Shown: positions 21,190 through 28,788 of the stretch, in pieces
Layout: each line of letters starts with the position of its first letter
Position numbering within the stretch: position 1 is the first letter of the stretch
NCBI GenBank assembly: GCA_030041495.1
Contig: JASHNT010000112.1
Location: forward strand, 1-35,867
DNA: 35,867 nt
Origin: Bryobacteraceae bacterium
GTDB taxonomy: Bacteria > Acidobacteriota > Terriglobia > Bryobacterales > Bryobacteraceae
Reading direction: 5' to 3'
Position numbers and translations under genes: made by a program
Notes under the pieces: model-generated
What the model was told of the DNA's origin: nothing
Seen by the model: the letters and a program-made list of their open reading frames with translations, nothing else
Databases searched by the model: none

Positions 21190-23319
21190 TCACTTCGGCC
21201 AGTTGCTGACCAGGTTGTTGACGTCCACGCTGCCGATGCCGTTGGCGAAGCTCCAGGTGGTTCCGGCAGCGTAGGCGGGCGTGAAGGTGGTGTCGGAAAC
21301 GGAGAGCGCGCCGCCCCAGGTCGTTCCGAACACGCGTCCGTTGCGCCCGTAATCGACAGTTCCCAGGATGCCGTAACAGTTCTCGATTCCATCGCAGGGC
21401 ATGTCGATGTCTCCTTGCGGGACGGTATGAAACGCGCTGGGTGTGCTGGCCGCCAGAGAGTAGTAGACGTAGTTGGGATTACCTTGCGCTCCGCCCACGT
21501 TCTGGTTCACCAGAGCCTGAACGCCGGCCATCACGGGCGCGGCCAGGGAAGTGCCGCCCACCCCTGTCCAGCCGTAGGGCGGGCCAACGCACGGTTCTCC
21601 GCCGTTCGCCTCATCGCTGAAACACATAATCGAATCGTGCCCCCATATAATTCCCTCGGAGGAGAACATGGAAACGTCGGGGATGTCGCGCACGCCGTCG
21701 CTGGGGATTCCGGCAAGTCCTTTCTGCCAGGGAGGCTTTGGGTAACCTTGGCAGTTACCGCTGGCCACTCCGAAAATAGAGGGCACGCCGGTGGCGCAGT
21801 TGCTGGGGCCCCCGCTTCCTCCGGCGACCTCCACCAGCCCGAAGGTTAGCGCCGTGGAGCTGTTGCAGAAACCGTTGGCGCCATATCCGGTCTGGTAGCC
21901 AAAGTAGCCGGCGACGAAGCTGGAGGCACAAGTATCGTTCCACGGAATTTCGGGAATGTAAGAAAGGGCGGAGCCGTAGGTGGGGCTATTCTGAGAACTC
22001 CAATATTGGCCGGTAGTGCCCGACGCCACATCGCTGAAATCGGTCCCGCCGACGGCGACGTTGTTGGGGGTCGAGGCAAACGCGCTGACGCCGATGCCGT
22101 GGCTGGCTTGAATCCCGCCCGCGTCGCAACTGGCCGCGCCCTCGTCTCCGGCGGCTACGAACACGGAAGCGCCCTCGCTCACCGACTGTTGGTACAGCGC
22201 GTTGATGGCGGCATTCGACGCGGTTCCATTGAACGCCTCACAAATGCCATAGCTAAGGCTCATGACGGCGGGAGGATTGCTCGAGTTCACCAGATTCTGC
22301 ATGGCAATGGTCAGACCGTCGGTGACCGTGTTCACATCAGAACAGGACGTCACAACGATGGCGGCTCCCGGCGCGGCGGCAGTAGCCCATTCGGCATCGG
22401 CGATGGCTTCGATATCGTCCGAGTTGACTCCGGGATCCGTGCAGTTGGAGCTTCCGCTGGGCGGCTGAGGGTGATCCGAGGTAACAGTTCCGCCGTATTG
22501 GGTCAAGCCGAACTCGCGCTGGAAGGTGGTCCAGTCCGAGGTGCGGTACAGGTCGGTGTCTTCGATGACGTAGATGGTCTGCCCTTTACCGGTGATGCCG
22601 CGGCTGAACAGAGGATTGAAGTCGTAGATGGTGGCCAGGTCGGCAGGCACTACCGCCTGGAAGATGGCGCCCGCATAAGGGTAGGTGTACTGGGCGATGC
22701 GGCTCATTTTATGCGGCCGGAAATCGTGCAGCGACACGATGCCGGCGACCGCGGGCGCGAGCGCAGCCGGGATCTGGGGGTCGCTCATGTTGGCATAATG
22801 CCGCACACCGGCGACATCCAGCGCGTGAATCGACGTGTGAAATGCGCGCCGCACCTGGCCGGCATTGCCCGAAAAATCGATAACCATGCCGCTGGGATAA
22901 ATGGAATTGATCTGGAAACCGTGGGATTCGAGCCATTGGGAAATCGTATCCAGATCGGATTTCGCGGAGCCGAACCTCCGGCCGAATTCAGCCGGGCTCA
23001 GCCAGTGATGGTAAAGGGGCGAGTACGGGTCATGCAGCGCGTCCAGGAACACCTGCAGCGCTTGCTCCTGGCGGGCGGAACGCTTGAGCTGAAGCATCAT
23101 GTGATTCATGACCATGCCATCGGAAACTGCGCCGAGATCGTTGGCCTGCGTGGCTTCCGGGCGCGTGTTGCCGGCGAGGGTGATCAGCTTTGACTCGTCC
23201 ACTGGCTCGCGGATCAGGGCTTGCGGGGCTTCCTCGGTTTGAGGCTTCAGGGCAAGTGCGCCCGCCATCAACAGCAGCACGGCCGCAACGGTTCGATGAG
23301 GAAGGCGGATTCGGGACAT
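21190..23319 (-). CDS. S53 family serine-carboxyl peptidase (sedolisin) with pro-domain
   Basis: ATG 23319, five bases after GAGG, begins a signal peptide (SRIRLPHRTVAAVLLLMAG); the frame continues upstream but without a credible start. The 709-residue protein is an exported protease precursor. Residues about 40-195 are a pro-kumamolisin activation domain (HDPYSPLYHHWLSPAEFGRR at 96-115). The catalytic domain runs from about 225 to 705. The Glu-Asp-Ser triad can be placed: E304 and D308 in DIEAIADAEWATAAAPGA, S591 in GGTSLAAPVMAG, with oxyanion D392 in AAGDEGA. Sedolisins are usually active at acid pH. The end (TPAYAAGTTWSFANGIGSVD) is the usual calcium-site region, but the expected calcium-binding Asp residues are only partly recognisable. 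It is divergent from the TIGR03437 protein with only 40 nt between starts. Confidence 0.9.
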   Translation of the reverse strand: MSRIRLPHRTVAAVLLLMAGALALKPQTEEAPQALIREPVDESKLITLAGNTRPEATQANDLGAVSDGMVMNHMMLQLKRSARQEQALQVFLDALHDPYSPLYHHWLSPAEFGRRFGSAKSDLDTISQWLESHGFQINSIYPSGMVIDFSGNAGQVRRAFHTSIHALDVAGVRHYANMSDPQIPAALAPAVAGIVSLHDFRPHKMSRIAQYTYPYAGAIFQAVVPADLATIYDFNPLFSRGITGKGQTIYVIEDTDLYRTSDWTTFQREFGLTQYGGTVTSDHPQPPSGSSNCTDPGVNSDDIEAIADAEWATAAAPGAAIVVTSCSDVNTVTDGLTIAMQNLVNSSNPPAVMSLSYGICEAFNGTASNAAINALYQQSVSEGASVFVAAGDEGAASCDAGGIQASHGIGVSAFASTPNNVAVGGTDFSDVASGTTGQYWSSQNSPTYGSALSYIPEIPWNDTCASSFVAGYFGYQTGYGANGFCNSSTALTFGLVEVAGGSGGPSNCATGVPSIFGVASGNCQGYPKPPWQKGLAGIPSDGVRDIPDVSMFSSEGIIWGHDSIMCFSDEANGGEPCVGPPYGWTGVGGTSLAAPVMAGVQALVNQNVGGAQGNPNYVYYSLAASTPSAFHTVPQGDIDMPCDGIENCYGILGTVDYGRNGRVFGTTWGGALSVSDTTFTPAYAAGTTWSFANGIGSVDVNNLVSNWPK

Positions 23320-23351
23320 GGATGCCTCGCATTTCCACGCGGGCTTCAAAG

Positions 23352-23363
23352 GCATTATAATGC
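23352..23363. promoter_or_regulatory. Palindrome GCATTATAATGC in the divergent S53 / TIGR03437 gap
   Basis: A perfect 12-bp palindrome contains TATAAT on both strands. On the minus strand it suits a -10 for the protease gene (start 23319). On the plus strand it would start transcription near 23368, inside the predicted gene at 23360. It also holds that gene's ATG. Confidence 0.3.
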
Positions 23364-25459
23364 TTTCGACGGTGAAGATTTTACTCCCGCTGGTCACCCT
23401 CCTATTCTCCGGCGCCGTCGCCGCTGTCGCGCAGACGCAGGACTCGAGCCAGGATGGGCTCCTCAATGGAGCTTACAAGTTCCGCCATGTCGCCGTTCTG
23501 AATGTCGACGAATCGGGAAACCCCAGCGAAGTGGATGCGATCTACGGTTCCATCACGTTCGACGGGAAGGGAAATTACACGATTTCCGCGACGTCGGTGG
23601 ATAACACGGTTTCGAGCGGCGCTCCGCAGGCCCTGAACGAGACCGGCACCTACGCGATCGGCTCCAGCGGAGCCGGCTACATCGCCAATCCTATTTCCCC
23701 CACCGATCCGAACGCGTATATTTACGGTGCGGTCGCGCAGGGCGTCTATACGGGCAGCTCCACCGAGGTTGGCCAGGAAGGTTTGATTTTGAACGATATT
23801 TTCATCGCCATCCCGGTGGGGGCGGCGCCGGCCAACGCGAGCTTCACTTCTGCGTATCAGACCGGCCTGCTGGATTTTACCGGCGGTGGCAGCAGCGCGA
23901 TCAAGAACGCGCTGTTCGAGCTGACTCCGAACGGGCAGGGGAAGTTCGGGACGATCACATTGACCGGGCAGGCATCGGACTCGATCGAGAGCATCGTGAC
24001 CGAAACGGTCACCGGCGCTACTTACAACTTCAACAGTGATGGAAGCGCCACGGTGACCATTCCGCAAGGCGGCGCATTGGAGCAGCCGCTGTTCAGCGGC
24101 TCGAAAACGCTGTTTGAGTCCGCCGACGGCAAATTCATTCTGGGTTGGACGGCGGGCGGCTACGACATTTTCTTCGGCGTGGTCGCGCTCAATATTTCCG
24201 GGACAAATGCCGCAACGGCCGGACTGTACTTCACGTCGGCGCTGGAGGATTCGAGTTTCGGCGCGGATTCGTATTACGGAGGAACCAGCAATTTTGGGGA
24301 CAACCCCGGTGACGCGGTGGTGCATCAGCGCATCAACATTCCTGGCGTTCCGTCTTACGACTACGGGGCCAGCGATCAGATTGCGGTTAGCACGAATGGA
24401 GCGGGCGGCACAGATTCCCTGGGATACAATTACCTGTTCGGCGACACGAGCGTTTGCCAGTCCGGCACGACGACGTTTCCGTGTGCGGCTGCGTTTGTGG
24501 CCATTGGCACTGGTGGAAACTATTCCTTGCTGGTGGGTATGCACGCGCCGGTGTTTTCCGGATCGGGCGTGTATTTGTATCCGACGGGCGTGGTGAACGC
24601 CGCCAGTTACCAGCCGGTTACCGCAAGCCTCGCCCCGGGAGAATTGATCACGCTGTTTGGAACCGGATTCACCACGGCGACCCAGTTCATCCAAGGAGGG
24701 CAACCCTTTCCGCCGTCACTGGGAGGGGTTTCCGTGACCATCAATGGCATCGCTTGTCCCATATACTACGTGAGTCCAACGCAGCTTTCGGTGATCGTTC
24801 CGTACGCGGTTGCTTCCAACCAGACCGGCCTGGCCAATATTCAGGTGACCAACGGAAGTTCGGTTTCCAACGTCGTCCAGATCTATTTGACCGACGCCGC
24901 TCCAGGAGCCTTCTCGCAGGAGACCACCCCGGTGCTTACCACGCTGTCGGGCCAGCCGAGCATCGACGGCATCGGTTATGCCGCGGCTCGACATGCAGCG
25001 ACGGGGGAGCTGGTCACGCCCAGCAATCCCGCGCAGGACAACGAATACATCTCCGTGTATCTGACGGGACTGGGTCCGGTGTCGCCGTCCATCAGCGACG
25101 GCGATGTGGGACCGTCGAACCCGCTGAGCTGGGCCGATGTGTACCAGGCGTTCAACCTGACGGTGTTGTTCAACGATTACGCGATCGATTCGGTGGAGAA
25201 TGTGGGCGTGGTTGAATTCGCGGGGCTGGCGCCGGGGTTCGCCGGTCTGTACCAAATCAATGTGCAGATCCCCGCGGGTGTGCTGGGGGCCACTGACGAT
25301 GTGTTCCTGGAGTTCGCCACGGACGCCGCGGACGTAAACCAGATCGAGATTCCCTATGGAGGATCAGGGGCTAACCCGTTCAAGAAGGGTCGGTCTTCCG
25401 CTCAAGCCGCGCGCGCCGCGACAATGCGTGAGCGAAAGGGCAAATTCACCCGCCGCTAG
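23360..25459 (+). CDS. Exported protein with C-terminal TIGR03437 domain
   Basis: Start placed at ATG 23360, directly before a signal peptide (LSTVKILLPLVTLLFSGAVA); an ATG 14 codons earlier (23318) overlaps the opposite gene's start codon and is less likely. GTG 23372 is also possible. The 699-residue product has an N-terminal beta-rich region (about 28-385) with YGSITFDGKGNYTISATSVD and ETGTYAIGSSGAGYI, a pattern of secreted acidobacterial proteins. A TIGR03437 domain follows at about 395-665: VVNAASYQPVTASLAPGELI, LFGTGFT, CPIYYVSPTQLSVIVPYAV, YISVYLTGLGPVSPSISDGD and AGLYQINVQIPAGV. This domain is typical of Solibacter surface proteins and has no known biochemical role. The basic tail (AQAARAATMRERKGKFTRR) is unusual for an exported protein. 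Paired with the divergent S53 protease. Confidence 0.82.
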   Translation: MLSTVKILLPLVTLLFSGAVAAVAQTQDSSQDGLLNGAYKFRHVAVLNVDESGNPSEVDAIYGSITFDGKGNYTISATSVDNTVSSGAPQALNETGTYAIGSSGAGYIANPISPTDPNAYIYGAVAQGVYTGSSTEVGQEGLILNDIFIAIPVGAAPANASFTSAYQTGLLDFTGGGSSAIKNALFELTPNGQGKFGTITLTGQASDSIESIVTETVTGATYNFNSDGSATVTIPQGGALEQPLFSGSKTLFESADGKFILGWTAGGYDIFFGVVALNISGTNAATAGLYFTSALEDSSFGADSYYGGTSNFGDNPGDAVVHQRINIPGVPSYDYGASDQIAVSTNGAGGTDSLGYNYLFGDTSVCQSGTTTFPCAAAFVAIGTGGNYSLLVGMHAPVFSGSGVYLYPTGVVNAASYQPVTASLAPGELITLFGTGFTTATQFIQGGQPFPPSLGGVSVTINGIACPIYYVSPTQLSVIVPYAVASNQTGLANIQVTNGSSVSNVVQIYLTDAAPGAFSQETTPVLTTLSGQPSIDGIGYAAARHAATGELVTPSNPAQDNEYISVYLTGLGPVSPSISDGDVGPSNPLSWADVYQAFNLTVLFNDYAIDSVENVGVVEFAGLAPGFAGLYQINVQIPAGVLGATDDVFLEFATDAADVNQIEIPYGGSGANPFKKGRSSAQAARAATMRERKGKFTRR

Positions 25460-25528
25460 CTTCTTGGCGTAAGCGGAGCTAACCAGTTACGGAAGATCGG
25501 CTGGGGTGGTAGTATGCCAAAAAAGTTC

Positions 25529-25557
25529 TTGTGCCGTGCCCGAGTTTGGGCTATATT
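25529..25557 (+). promoter_or_regulatory. Predicted promoter of the peptide-PqqD-kinase operon
   Basis: TTGTGC (25529-25534) and TATATT (25552-25557, 5 of 6) are 17 nt apart. Transcription would start near 25564, just before the AAGGTAGGT ribosome site of ATG 25578. This excludes the in-frame GTG at 25506 as the peptide start. Confidence 0.45.
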
Positions 25558-25577
25558 CAAACCCTAAGGTAGGTACT

Positions 25578-25739
25578 ATGATCCCAGATCCCAAGGTCCC
25601 AAACCCGAAAGCGGAGGATGTCTCGAGGCGCACCGTTGCGAAGAAGGTCGCCTACATCGCTCCTGCTGTGCTTGCGGCCATTGCCGCAGCAGAACGTCCG
25701 GCGCTTGCGCAAAGCGGTGGGGGGCAAGCCCCACAGTAA
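25578..25739 (+). CDS. Short peptide with twin-arginine-like leader, candidate modified-peptide precursor
   Basis: A 53-residue peptide from ATG 25578, with AAGGTAGGT before it. Residues 1-15 are hydrophilic and proline-rich (IPDPKVPNPKAEDV). S16-R17-R18-T-V-A-K-K looks like a weak twin-arginine motif, and Y26 to A38 (YIAPAVLAAIAAA) is hydrophobic. A signal-peptidase-like P-A-L-A at 41-44 is followed by only QSGGGQAPQ. Cutting there would leave nine residues with one serine and no cysteine. Being first in an operon with a PqqD-like protein, a kinase and a nucleotidyltransferase, it is the natural precursor or substrate candidate. Similar short proteins (RR, AYxAP, small tail) occur beside PqqD-type genes elsewhere, from memory. 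It could instead be a small membrane peptide. The precursor role is inference. Confidence 0.6.
   Translation: MIPDPKVPNPKAEDVSRRTVAKKVAYIAPAVLAAIAAAERPALAQSGGGQAPQ
25717..25734 (+). other. GC-rich hairpin at the 3' end of the peptide gene
   Basis: GTGGGG (25717-25722) and CCCCAC (25729-25734) pair across a 6-nt loop; an alternative GGGGC/GCCCC pairing overlaps it. It codes for the GGGQAP tail and precedes the 58-nt gap to the PqqD-like gene. No T-run follows, so it is not a standard terminator; it could stabilise the peptide message or lower read-through. Confidence 0.35.
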
Positions 25740-25797
25740 ACGGGCACGCTGTCCGGCCAATTTCGGGCCAAGTTTTCAAGTTGCAGGGGGAGTTGGT

Positions 25798-26088
25798 GTG
25801 GTGGGGAACTCCGGGATATACATGCGCCAGGGTTGCGTCGATGCGCATGCGTTACCCGACCACAGTCTCTTGCTTTACCACACGGGCAGCGAGGTAGCGT
25901 TTCCACTCAATGAATCCGGGGCCTTCATTTGGGAAATGTGCGATGGCGCGCATACGCTCGACCAAATCGTTGACGCTGTCGCTTCCAAGTATGAGGCGCA
26001 ACGCGAGCAAATCGATAAGGACACGAGAGCTTTCCTGGATGTGTTGATCCACCACGACCTAGTCCGCCCACAGGTTCCGGTAGCGTGA
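25798..26088 (+). CDS. PqqD family peptide-binding protein (RRE fold)
   Basis: GTG 25798 is chosen because GCAGGGGGAG lies six bases upstream and the product is then 96 residues, normal for PqqD. Starting at 25618 would read the peptide gene out of frame. Family marks are the N-terminal beta strands (ALPDHSLLLYHTGSEVAFPL at 18-37), N38-x-S-G-x-x-I-W45, and a winged-helix second half (HTLDQIVDAVASKY at 52-65, TRAFLDVLIHHDLV at 76-89). PqqD-like proteins bind leader peptides and present them to modifying enzymes, so it is the likely recognition partner of the 53-residue peptide. Its stop overlaps the kinase start (GTGA), indicating coupled translation. No lasso-type protease or cyclase is fused or adjacent. 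Confidence 0.85.
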   Translation: MVGNSGIYMRQGCVDAHALPDHSLLLYHTGSEVAFPLNESGAFIWEMCDGAHTLDQIVDAVASKYEAQREQIDKDTRAFLDVLIHHDLVRPQVPVA

Positions 26089-26966
26089 CCGCAGTTTTGC
26101 ACGCGGAGACAGCGCGCCAAGATGTCTTCGGAGTTTACGATTTTTCGTTCCGGTTCCTTTCCAGCAGTGACGATGCTCGCCGCTCGATGCGGAAGCTGTA
26201 CGCCCCGTTCGGTCGACCCGCATCCGGGAAACCTGCGCTGAACGCTGTCATCGAAGTAGAGGCCGGCGGTAAGTATCGTTGGCAGTTGGGACTAGCTGGC
26301 GGTACGGCGCCAGATCTACATGCGGCCCTATGGAGCCTGGAAGCCGCGCTTTGCGAAACGGTCATTCGTTCCCAACGAAGCCGGATCGCAGTTCATGGCG
26401 CCGCAGTTTATGCAGGGCAGACGCTGGCACTCATTGCGGGATGTTCGGGCGCGGGCAAGAGCACTCTGAGCTTGGCCTTGGCCAAGCGGGGCTTGGCTGT
26501 AGCGACCGATGACGTGGCGTTGGTGGATGCGGGCACGCTGGACGTGCTACCGATCCCAAGATATGTTCATCTCGATGAGAACAGCGTGAGTCTCCTGCAT
26601 GCGGATGGCTTCCAATTTGCCCAGGCTCGGGAGCATCACCGTCACATTACGCCGGCTGATCTGGGCGGTGCGGCGACGCAGCTCCTACCGGCTTCCGTGC
26701 TCATTTTCATGGCCGGCGCACGCCGGGAGCGTCCACGGATCGCGCCGATCTCCCAAGCGCAGGTGGCCGCACACTTGCTAAGTCAGACCGGCCAAGGTCC
26801 ACTCACAAACCTCGAAACAGTCGCGGTGCTCACAAGCATGGTGAGCGGGGCCGCTTGTTATGCTCTGACCGCGGGACCGCTGACCGCAACTGCCGACCTG
26901 GTGGCGGACGTGGTCCTCGGCGGTAACAAAGGCAACTGTACCGTTCGTCGAGAGTACCAGCAATGA
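26085..26966 (+). CDS. HprK-related kinase (HPr kinase/phosphorylase-like)
   Basis: A 293-residue protein from GTG 26085, overlapping the PqqD stop by 4 nt. The P-loop is G119-C-S-G-A-G-K-S-T127, preceded by IAVHGAAVYAGQTLALI at 101-117 and followed by ATDDVALVD at 140-148 (D142, D143), the arrangement of HPr serine kinase C-terminal domains. The N-terminal regulatory domain of true HprK is replaced by a short beta-rich part, and the HPr kinase signature loop is not evident, so the substrate is not HPr. Relatives next to PqqD-like genes are called HprK-related kinase A. In lasso peptide systems such as paeninodin an HprK-like enzyme phosphorylates the C-terminal serine of the precursor. By analogy it may act on the 53-residue peptide, perhaps Ser46 (inference). 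Confidence 0.85.
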   Translation: MTAVLHAETARQDVFGVYDFSFRFLSSSDDARRSMRKLYAPFGRPASGKPALNAVIEVEAGGKYRWQLGLAGGTAPDLHAALWSLEAALCETVIRSQRSRIAVHGAAVYAGQTLALIAGCSGAGKSTLSLALAKRGLAVATDDVALVDAGTLDVLPIPRYVHLDENSVSLLHADGFQFAQAREHHRHITPADLGGAATQLLPASVLIFMAGARRERPRIAPISQAQVAAHLLSQTGQGPLTNLETVAVLTSMVSGAACYALTAGPLTATADLVADVVLGGNKGNCTVRREYQQ

Positions 26967-28225
26967 CTCCTGTCGCCGAGAACGTACGACTCCTACTTGA
27001 CGTGTTGCGGGAACCGGCTCCGCGGGAGATTCGTTGGCCGTCGAACCCTGAGTGGGACTGGCACGATTTCACGACCTTGTGTGACCGGCACGCGGTGTCG
27101 TCTTTTATTTATTGCCGCCTCCGTGACCTCAATGCGCCGTCCGGGCTCCTGCATCAGCTTCGGTTGCGATTCTATGAGATCTCGGGTCGCAATTATCACT
27201 TAGCGAAGAAGCTGATCGAGCTGACGTCGCTGCTTGAAAGAGAGCGCATTCCCGCACTGGCTTACAAGGGGCCGGCGGTCGCGATGATGGCATACGGGGA
27301 TCTGGTATCGCGGGAGCATCAAGATATCGACGTCATGGTGCGCGAAGAAGACGTCATCAAATCGGTAGCCCTGATGAAGCGTCTTGGGTTCGAGCACCAG
27401 CCGTTAGGAGGAGGGAGGCCCTATCTTGCACCGTACTTTTGCCGTCCGGAGAATCCCCGGCATATCGCGCGCGCCGAGGAGATTCCCTTCCACTCACCCG
27501 ACAGGAATTACTTCGTCGATCTGCACTGGAATCTTGGCCCGGGCTGGCGCACGCTCTTTCCCGACATCCGGAAGGTTTGGGACCGAGTCCAGAAAATCGA
27601 CCTGCTTCAGGCGCAGGTGTCTACGTTCTGCCGTGAAGACTTGTTCTTGATTCTCTGTTCGCACGGAACCAAGCATCGCTGGAGCTCTCTCAAGTGGCTG
27701 GTTGACATCGCCCGCCTCCTTCACGGGTGCGATTCGTGGGACTGGTCGCGGGTGGAAGAGATGGTCGCGCTTCGCCCGAAGGCCGGCATGTGCGCAAGTC
27801 TCGGGCTCCTGCTTGCTCAGGAGTTCCTGGCATTGACGATCCCTCAAGAGGCGGCTCGGGTATTACCGGTCACGAAACCAGTTGGTGAGATGGCGTCGGG
27901 AATACGCGACCAAATCATGCGGGAGGGGCAATCGAGCGGCGACTACTTCACAACGGTGCTCGAGTTGGAAGAGCGTCCACTAGCTCGCATGAAATACCGT
28001 GCCAGCATTGCAATCCGGTATCCCGCTGGACTGTTCAGCGAAGTAGTTGTCCAGGTTTGTGAGAAAGACCGGGCACTCATTTTCTTGCCCAAGCCGCTCA
28101 ATTTTCTGTACCACCTCATTCGACCAGCGCGGCTGATGGGGAAGCATTTATTTGTGAAGCCGTGGCTTCGCATCGTCCGCCGGAAGTCGCAGGCTGCCGG
28201 GGCTCACGTGGCTGACCTATCTTAG
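26963..28225 (+). CDS. Nucleotidyltransferase family protein (NTP_transf_5-like)
   Basis: A 420-residue protein whose ATG overlaps the kinase stop (ATGA). The nucleotidyltransferase core is at about 85-150: LLERERIPALAYKGPAVAMM at 90-109, then S116-R-E-H-Q-D-I-D123, with D121 and D123 as the metal-binding pair, and VALMKRLGFE. A later FVDLHWNLGPGW and the long helical C-terminal half are typical of this uncharacterised family. In some lasso peptide clusters a homologue beside the kinase gene is linked to sugar addition on the phosphorylated C-terminus, so it may further decorate the kinase product (analogy only). The tail is basic, with a possible amphipathic helix (LNFLYHLIRPARLMGKHLF). It is the last gene of the operon; its stop overlaps that of the convergent nuclease-like gene. 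Confidence 0.85.
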   Translation: MTPVAENVRLLLDVLREPAPREIRWPSNPEWDWHDFTTLCDRHAVSSFIYCRLRDLNAPSGLLHQLRLRFYEISGRNYHLAKKLIELTSLLERERIPALAYKGPAVAMMAYGDLVSREHQDIDVMVREEDVIKSVALMKRLGFEHQPLGGGRPYLAPYFCRPENPRHIARAEEIPFHSPDRNYFVDLHWNLGPGWRTLFPDIRKVWDRVQKIDLLQAQVSTFCREDLFLILCSHGTKHRWSSLKWLVDIARLLHGCDSWDWSRVEEMVALRPKAGMCASLGLLLAQEFLALTIPQEAARVLPVTKPVGEMASGIRDQIMREGQSSGDYFTTVLELEERPLARMKYRASIAIRYPAGLFSEVVVQVCEKDRALIFLPKPLNFLYHLIRPARLMGKHLFVKPWLRIVRRKSQAAGAHVADLS

Positions 28226-28788
28226 GCCGATGGCGATGCGGTGAGGGCGGGCGCGTCAATCCCAGCGCGGCGCCGCGTGAGCTCCGCTTGGCGAATCGGT
28301 TGATGCCGGTTGGGCGGTATGCCTCGTTTGGCCTCAAGACGATTCTCTCCTCGCAGCCATTCCGAGAGCGGCCGGGAACCGATCCGGATCTGCGCGCGTC
28401 TCAGCATCGCGGTGAGGAACCGGACTTCGGCCACGAGGTTCCTGGCCGCGTGACCGCGCGCCTCGCGTTGCACGACCACCTGCCCATTGGCGACCCACAG
28501 AAGGCCCCACTTGGGCGGCAGATCCGCCACCCGGATCACGTTCGGCGGGCACAGATAGTAGCGGCGCTGACCCATTCCGGCGCGCGGATTCCTCCGCACG
28601 CTCTTGCCGGCATCCTTCAGAAAATCGGAACGGCTCAGTTTGCATTCGATCAGAACCGAACCCGCGCCGGAAGCCCAGCCGATCATGTCCGGATTCTCAC
28701 CTGCTGAAGCGTCGAATTCGTACAGCACGACGGAGCACTTTCTGCTCAACCACCGCACACCGGTCGCAACCAAGGTCGAGTGCTGCAT
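28222..28788 (-). CDS. PD-(D/E)xK nuclease-like protein
   Basis: A 188-residue cytoplasmic protein. E24, NPD at 32-34 and I47-E48-C-K50 give the D-(x)n-E-x-K core of the restriction endonuclease-like fold (D34, E48, K50). The strip GMGQRRYYLCPPNVIRVADL with PPKWGLLWV is familiar from small proteins of phages and mobile regions, often left as hypothetical. It may be a nuclease of a defence or repair system, or an inactive relative; no methyltransferase or partner lies beside it. The last 50 residues are basic and probably disordered. ATG 28788 follows GGAG at a 9-nt spacing inside a 19-bp palindrome, pointing to tight control. It converges on the nucleotidyltransferase with 4 nt of overlap. 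Confidence 0.7.
   Translation of the reverse strand: MQHSTLVATGVRWLSRKCSVVLYEFDASAGENPDMIGWASGAGSVLIECKLSRSDFLKDAGKSVRRNPRAGMGQRRYYLCPPNVIRVADLPPKWGLLWVANGQVVVQREARGHAARNLVAEVRFLTAMLRRAQIRIGSRPLSEWLRGENRLEAKRGIPPNRHQPIRQAELTRRRAGIDAPALTASPSA

Follow-up and report, generated by a model that had tools for sequence, protein, structure and literature searches.

The window analysed here is a stretch of 35,867 nucleotides from the genome of a Bryobacteraceae bacterium (Acidobacteriota; contig JASHNT010000112.1 of assembly GCA_030041495.1). It carries a four-gene operon, positions 25578-28225 of the forward strand, in which the gene for a 53-residue peptide is followed on the same strand by genes for a PqqD-family protein, an HprK-like kinase and an NTP_transf_5 nucleotidyltransferase. 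The operon probably makes a small, exported, phosphate-tailored linear peptide whose leader doubles as a signal of the twin-arginine translocation (Tat) type, a reading to which we give a probability of roughly 0.55. Relatives of the system are present in many Acidobacteria as well as in a few other phyla, and in these the peptide and its recognition domain are often fused; the window peptide looks like a split form of such a fused PqqD-signal-core tail. It does not appear to be a lasso peptide. A literature search limited to open-licence papers found no description of this combination.

An earlier interpretation made from the letters of the DNA alone, the sequence-only reading, had proposed a four-gene system that tailors an otherwise linear or Tat-targeted peptide by phosphorylation and a second transfer. 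The operon is real and the comparative evidence fits such tailoring, but the system is not alone, having the appearance of a split form within a wider fused family, and the C-terminal site known from paeninodin does not suit this peptide.

In the mechanism that we propose, the Y-x-x-P region of the leader would be the docking site for the PqqD protein, acting as a RiPP recognition element (RiPPs being ribosomally synthesized and post-translationally modified peptides), and the SRR-hydrophobic-AxA layout of the same leader would provide a Tat-type export signal. PqqD would present the peptide to the HprK-like kinase for phosphorylation of Ser46, just past the predicted cleavage site, and the NTP_transf_5 enzyme would add a second group on the phosphate or beside it, either a hexose, as the analogy with pseudomycoidin suggests, or else a nucleotidyl group. 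Export of the product by Tat would be followed by trimming by signal peptidase, so that a lasso leader peptidase, a cyclase and a dedicated transporter would be unnecessary. In most of the relatives that were read PqqD is fused before the signal and a Cys- or Pro-rich core, and recognition would thus be in cis.

More tentatively, at somewhat less than even odds, the system may represent a widespread class of RiPPs with a Tat-type signal leader. In such a class PqqD, in cis in most members and in trans on Y-x-x-P here, would guide the kinase and the nucleotidyltransferase to a Ser or Thr at the mature N-terminus of Cys-, Pro- or Gly-rich mini-peptides, with export and trimming by the general Tat system and signal peptidase. 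If true, RiPP modification can skip a dedicated protease and transporter by using an ordinary export signal as leader, and PqqD-HprK-nucleotidyltransferase cassettes would be linked to a large set of Cys-rich mini-proteins.

The peptide and its candidate phosphorylation site

For the 53-residue peptide, Pfam has no matching family and NCBIfam gives no meaningful hit. The layout of a Tat substrate, with a twin arginine, a hydrophobic stretch and AxA, can be read in its sequence as SRRTVAK..PALA, and its predicted mature part is QSGGGQAPQ. The YxxPxL motif of lasso leaders is represented by YIAPAV, in which Y-x-x-P is kept and Val replaces Leu. Y-x-x-P is found in five of six stand-alone peptides, as against the signal region of one of 67 fused tails (Fisher p 2e-6, uncorrected for kinship). 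The Tyr of the motif lies 17-22 residues before a Ser or Thr near the predicted cleavage site, the spacing being 20 in the window and 19 as computed from the positions in the lasso precursor BsfA.

A hydroxyl residue at the start of the core is a recurrent feature of the fused proteins described below. In 54 of 58 Cys-containing tails at least one of the three residues preceding the first Cys is Ser or Thr, and in 48 of 54 fused tails a Ser or Thr stands at +1 to +3 after a strict AxA, compared with 22 of 59 other signal-like N-termini from the same loci. These counts are not independent, as many of the fused proteins come from one genus, 14 of 68 fused tails lack a strict AxA in range, and the script set some sites too early or too late. 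Ser3 of the BsfA core is phosphorylated by an HprK-like kinase whose activity is weak by itself and strong in the presence of its PqqD-like partner (PMC10368454). The paeninodin-type modification of the C-terminus, which the sequence-only reading had cited, does not fit because the peptide ends in Gln, and the candidate Ser46 is instead near the start of the core, like Ser3 of BsfA.

Absence of conservation among relatives had been named as an outcome that would count against the proposal. The outcome went the other way, and homologues at 39-53% identity mark the peptide as more than a chance ORF: its identity is 53% with a peptide of genome G049 and 39% with one in G516 (locus L125).

The fused PqqD-signal-core family

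Among 200 genomes of the order, PF14907 is found in 106 and PF05402 in 82. PqqD places were noted at 114 positions, with 20 weaker ones left out, and 108 of these noted places, including that of the window, were read. Five of these 108 PqqD proteins (L176, L180, L182, L184 and L185) bear a C-terminal SRR/TRR...AxA tail, each with adjoining HprK and nucleotidyltransferase genes, and a sixth (L044) was found via its kinase. A scan of named genomes with five of these fused proteins led back to the five query loci and to ten new ones, 15 in all; the new ones include metagenome-assembled genomes labelled Gemmatimonadetes, Chloroflexi, Abditibacteriaceae and Pyrinomonadaceae, and their tails are often Cys-rich. 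At E 1e-4, a profile of 14 fused proteins matched 112 of the 396 genomes of the phylum; a good part of these matches are partial, and full-length ones (E 4e-28 or better) occur at 53 places in 39 genomes.

Reading of 74 proteins yielded 68 distinct fused PqqD::[ST]RR...AxA::core proteins, whose cores are short, hypervariable and mostly Cys-rich; the tail of L204, which belongs to a record named Acidobacteriaceae bacterium KBS 96 and perhaps to a cultured strain, has no Cys. When 67 fused loci were scored, HprK was adjacent in 42, the nucleotidyltransferase in 38 and both in 32, where adjacent means on the same strand within 400 nt and several flanks extend only about 1.4 kb. In a chosen subset, Pfam recognizes PqqD in 34 of 34, together with the small Cys-rich families UPF0506 (three proteins) and PF06357 (two). 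Two loci carry consecutive fused PqqD-signal-Cys-rich genes with differing cores, three in L242 (G256:C5) and two in L240 (G440:C1). The 'SC' of the tails was weighed as a possible lipobox, an idea discarded by eye since there is no Leu at -3 and no Cys in the window peptide.

Stand-alone peptides elsewhere

A signal-tail profile built from 67 fused tails was run on the 33,778 open reading frames (ORFs) of the collected loci. Directly below the fused proteins it ranks the stand-alone peptides of L125 (20.4 bits), L183 (15.1) and L189 (14.0), with the fused L044, itself in the profile, between L125 and L183. The G049 peptide scores 9.4 bits, three places below that of the window. The score of the window peptide is not significant by itself, so its link to the fused family runs through L125. 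Stand-alone peptides adjoin PqqD and HprK genes in the window, L125, L183, L189 and L270, and in the last three PqqD and HprK share one open frame. A second peptide 'copy' in L125 spans a run of N with duplicated flanks and was therefore counted with the first as one peptide.

A second profile, made from the window, G049 and G516 peptides and run on the 200 genomes of the order, found 31 places, four of them query places and 27 others. Four of the 27 have a PqqD domain within 3 kb (G542, G486, G500 and G590, the last being fused); the peptide of L270 is one that this profile retrieves. Twenty-three of the 31 places were set aside, and the HprK, nucleotidyltransferase and PqqD profiles matched at none of the nine set-aside places scanned (L259, L261, L262, L263, L265, L269, L277, L283 and L285). 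An earlier phylum-wide search with two peptides only gave no convincing homologue besides the window among 396 genomes, its candidates having been inspected and dropped as unconvincing.

Some of these loci have further features. In L189 (5428-7892) an RR-type Gly/Ser-rich peptide, an enzyme like the bufferin maturases of the multinuclear non-heme iron-dependent oxidative (MNIO) family and a PqqD-HprK protein are adjacent, and two RiPP chemistries may be combined here. Directly upstream of the stand-alone peptide, both L183 (4386-5102) and L270 (683-1420) have an ORF whose start resembles a signal and which has no Pfam match; that of L270 ends, by eye, in a PEP-CTERM-like tail.

The kinase and the nucleotidyltransferase

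The window kinase has its best NCBIfam match in TIGR04352 (HPr-rel-A), below the cut-off of that model, and reaches 21.6 bits with Pfam Hpr_kinase_C, below the cut-off of 33.3. Its structural model (pLDDT, the predicted local distance difference test score, 78.6) has an HprK/PEPCK fold, and the residues named for BsfK, namely the His, the P-loop and the DD pair (PMC10368454), are kept. The nucleotidyltransferase model (pLDDT 79.9) has a nucleotidyltransferase fold, with a weak resemblance to FKRP too.

A kinase tree was built from 104 rows whose matched stretch is at least about 130 residues long; in it, the window kinase and the L125 kinase form a pair (100/98). Together with the other stand-alone kinases, the fused-form kinases and two unassigned rows, this pair falls on one side of a branch that holds 53 rows (85/85), and a lasso-type group of 35 rows is separate (99/99). 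Of the lasso-type rows, 19 have an AsnS motif nearby; the other 16 have none but fall among these, and they were added after the tree had been seen.

Relation to known systems

The nearest known systems are the phosphorylated lasso clusters, represented by paeninodin, the bsf cluster of Bradymonas sediminis and pseudomycoidin, which share with the window a PqqD-type protein, an HprK-like kinase, in some cases a nucleotidyltransferase, and a Y-x-x-P leader (PMC10368454, PMC8498205). BsfA further shares phosphorylation near the start of the core, as proposed for the window (PMC10368454), and the pseudomycoidin nucleotidyltransferase reportedly attaches one or two hexoses to the peptide in its phosphorylated form (PMC8498205). 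The window differs from these clusters in that no leader peptidase, cyclase or transporter was found, in the lack of a ring acceptor, in the Tat-type-like leader and in a C-terminal Gln in place of Ser.

The HPr-rel-A system (TIGR04352 kinase, TIGR04353 PqqD) uses the same enzyme families, but the window kinase and two fused PqqDs fall below the cut-offs, the latter with 23.9 and 28.8 bits against a TIGR04353 cut-off of 35. Signal-type leaders are described as rare among bacterial RiPPs, and the bufferins, which use Sec, are a known case (PMC12452194). Bufferins and other MNIO-modified RiPPs with Sec signals depart from the present system in using MNIO oxidases and Sec, where the window has a kinase, a nucleotidyltransferase, PqqD and a Tat-like motif; no MNIO maturase is present among the operon proteins or the six flanking proteins scanned.

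Weighing the alternatives

A number of results weigh against a phosphorylated, Tat-exported peptide of this kind. Changes to Ala in the YxxPxL motif of BsfA left phosphorylation unreduced (PMC10368454). The Tat signal profile TIGR01409 has no match to the window peptide at E<=10, and only one of the 34 fused proteins in the chosen subset reaches it. With the signal-tail profile the window peptide obtains 10.1 bits (E 0.44, rank 86), with one unrelated ORF above it. The closest peptide, that of G049 (L041), adjoins a GT2 glycosyltransferase with no PqqD/HprK cassette in the stretch examined, and tblastn with the window PqqD and HprK matched neither in the 14.9 kb around it. Within 400 nt on the same strand, 25 of 67 fused proteins lack HprK and 29 of 67 lack the nucleotidyltransferase, and HprK is missing even in long loci, of 7.5-17.5 kb (L237, L238, L239, L241, L242, L245 and L248) and 10 kb (L197 and L200). 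An approximately unbiased (AU) test does not reject placing the window kinase with the lasso-type group (p-AU 0.44). Finally, a polysaccharide deacetylase gene is directly upstream of the kinase in the fused cassettes L176 and L182, and L176 also has, at the locus edge about 5.2 kb away from its kinase, a true Asn_synthase end (74 bits); these neighbours could hint at glycan work.

The deacetylase genes also speak for the strongest rival, unlikely in our judgement: an envelope glycan or lipid carrier would be the substrate of the enzymes, and the peptide or Tat-like tail would serve only to anchor or export the PqqD partner at the membrane. An alpha-L-rhamnosidase adjoins the L180 kinase, the neighbour of the G049 peptide is a glycosyltransferase, and the resemblance of the nucleotidyltransferase fold to FKRP, weak as it is, points the same way. 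The source genome itself holds a second HprK-nucleotidyltransferase pair (L088, C17:68000-87000) in the company of genes for a MurJ-type flippase, a glycosyltransferase and a sugar transferase, where the genome search gave no PqqD match. At L184, L185 and L044 the scanned neighbours are a mixed set. By their matches, none of the six window flanking proteins scanned is a glycan enzyme, and the hypervariable, mostly Cys-rich nature of the parts after AxA is what would be expected of products, not of anchors. To our knowledge, PqqD domains bind precursor peptides in the known cases, which also counts against a glycan role.

It is less probable still that the peptide is left unphosphorylated, with PqqD holding the signal for folding or another modification and the kinase and nucleotidyltransferase acting on a partner protein or on PqqD. 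Such an arrangement would account for the fused proteins that have no HprK or nucleotidyltransferase gene close by and for L189, where a similar peptide is paired with an MNIO-family maturase. The precedent of BsfK, the conservation of Ser/Thr at the core start and the tight overlap of the PqqD, kinase and nucleotidyltransferase genes in the window argue against it.

The least probable of the three, by a little, is a decayed lasso cluster, in which a leader-like peptide, PqqD, the kinase and the nucleotidyltransferase would be left after the loss of cyclase, peptidase and transporter. The Y-x-x-P motif of the peptide is as in lasso leaders, the AU test does not reject kinship with lasso-type kinases, and PqqD, HprK and the nucleotidyltransferase are also present in lasso-type loci of the same order: an AsnS-motif ORF lies within 5 kb of PqqD in 30 of 100 loci, at least one of which is a chance match (L176, where it is an AMP-binding/NAD-synthase ORF). 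Against decay, all four window ORFs are uninterrupted, and the six stand-alone cores, cut after AxA or its like, contain no Asp or Glu that could serve as ring acceptor. The candidate lasso precursors of the order, drawn from 12 of the 30 loci and some of them doubtful, have polar leaders, with RR before Y..P in one of 14. The AsnS motif is absent from L125, L183 and L189 (12-13 kb each) and from L270 (3 kb only), and it is present in one of the 65 loci L192-L256, there in an AMP-ligase ORF. In the tree, moreover, the window kinase groups with the fused-form kinases and not with the lasso-type group.

The missing lasso genes had already been remarked on in the sequence-only reading, and their absence is borne out here. 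The cyclase-type SGGxDS and radical-SAM-type CxxxCxxC motifs occur in no window ORF of at least 100 residues, the six flanking proteins belong to other families or none, and the B2 leader peptidase PF13471 gives 0 matches at E<=0.001 in the source genome (6.12 Mb in 144 contigs, 98.22% complete). A cyclase, protease or radical SAM gene linked elsewhere in the genome had been put forward as contrary evidence; the lasso protease is not found in the genome, and the cyclase and radical SAM enzyme were sought in the window only.

Layout of the operon and its surroundings

The four genes and their short overlaps, as described from the sequence alone, are confirmed (Table 1). The overlap between PqqD and HprK is GTGA and that between HprK and the nucleotidyltransferase is ATGA; the gap from the peptide gene to PqqD is 82 nt. 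The single promoter predicted earlier was not recovered, a sigma-70 scan of 25380-28400, which suits E. coli-type promoters only, giving 0 sites against 0.7 in shuffles.

Table 1. Features of the peptide operon, in window coordinates
Feature	Position	Strand	Basis
Shine-Dalgarno-like AAGGTAGG, just 5' of the peptide gene	25566..25573	+	read in sequence
53-residue precursor-like peptide MIPDPKVPNPKAEDVSRRTVAKKVAYIAPAVLAAIAAAERPALAQSGGGQAPQ	25578..25739 (ATG 25578, stop ends 25739)	+	ORF
Twin Arg of Tat-like motif SRRTVAK	25626..25631	+	sequence; RR in 6/6 stand-alone peptides
Y-I-A-P, lasso-leader-like Y-x-x-P motif, possible PqqD contact	25653..25664	+	in 5/6 stand-alone peptides vs 1/67 fused tails
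Ala-Leu-Ala, predicted signal-peptidase-type cleavage site	25701..25709	+	sequence; compared with AxA of fused tails
Ser46, candidate phospho-acceptor	25713..25715	+	sole hydroxyl residue after predicted cleavage site; 20 residues after Tyr26
PqqD-family protein, 88 residues from this ATG	25822..26088	+	PF05402, 69.3 bits, E 3.6e-19
HprK-like kinase, 293 residues, GTG start	26085..26966	+	TIGR04352, 50.7 bits (cut-off 200); predicted HprK/PEPCK fold
Kinase His104, invariant in 13 aligned kinases	26394..26396	+	
Kinase P-loop GCSGAGKST	26439..26465	+	kinase alignment
Kinase Asp142-Asp143; first invariant, second D or E	26508..26513	+	kinase alignment
NTP_transf_5 nucleotidyltransferase, 420 residues	26963..28225	+	PF14907, 164 bits, E 5.2e-48; predicted nucleotidyltransferase fold
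D-x-D (Asp121, Asp123), invariant in 11 aligned nucleotidyltransferases	27323..27331	+	catalytic role by analogy

Two of the six flanking proteins scanned have no match; the other four are an FkbM methyltransferase, a pro-kumamolisin-type peptidase, a TIG-domain protein and a DUF3738 protein. The gene for the pro-kumamolisin/subtilase-type peptidase (21193-23466, reverse strand) is separated from the operon by one gene and points away from it. TatC has two matches in the source genome.

Other PqqD arrangements were encountered during the survey. In one further class of PqqD proteins (L144, L152, L174, L175, L178, L181, L186, L187, L188 and L190) a motif like LLLLDPIHDVDETGWP closes a C-terminal tail, and the proteins look like precursors that carry their own recognition domain; HprK is nearby in nine of the ten, often with the nucleotidyltransferase too, and L187 has the nucleotidyltransferase only. 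In L145, L148, L149, L153 and L162, PqqD adjoins the nucleotidyltransferase with no HprK match, and a TRR-type signal ORF of 350-701 residues lies near L148, L153 and L162. In L135, L143, L147, L150, L155 and L166, an HprK-PqqD pair adjoins an ORF with a CxxxCxxC motif, possibly a radical SAM enzyme.

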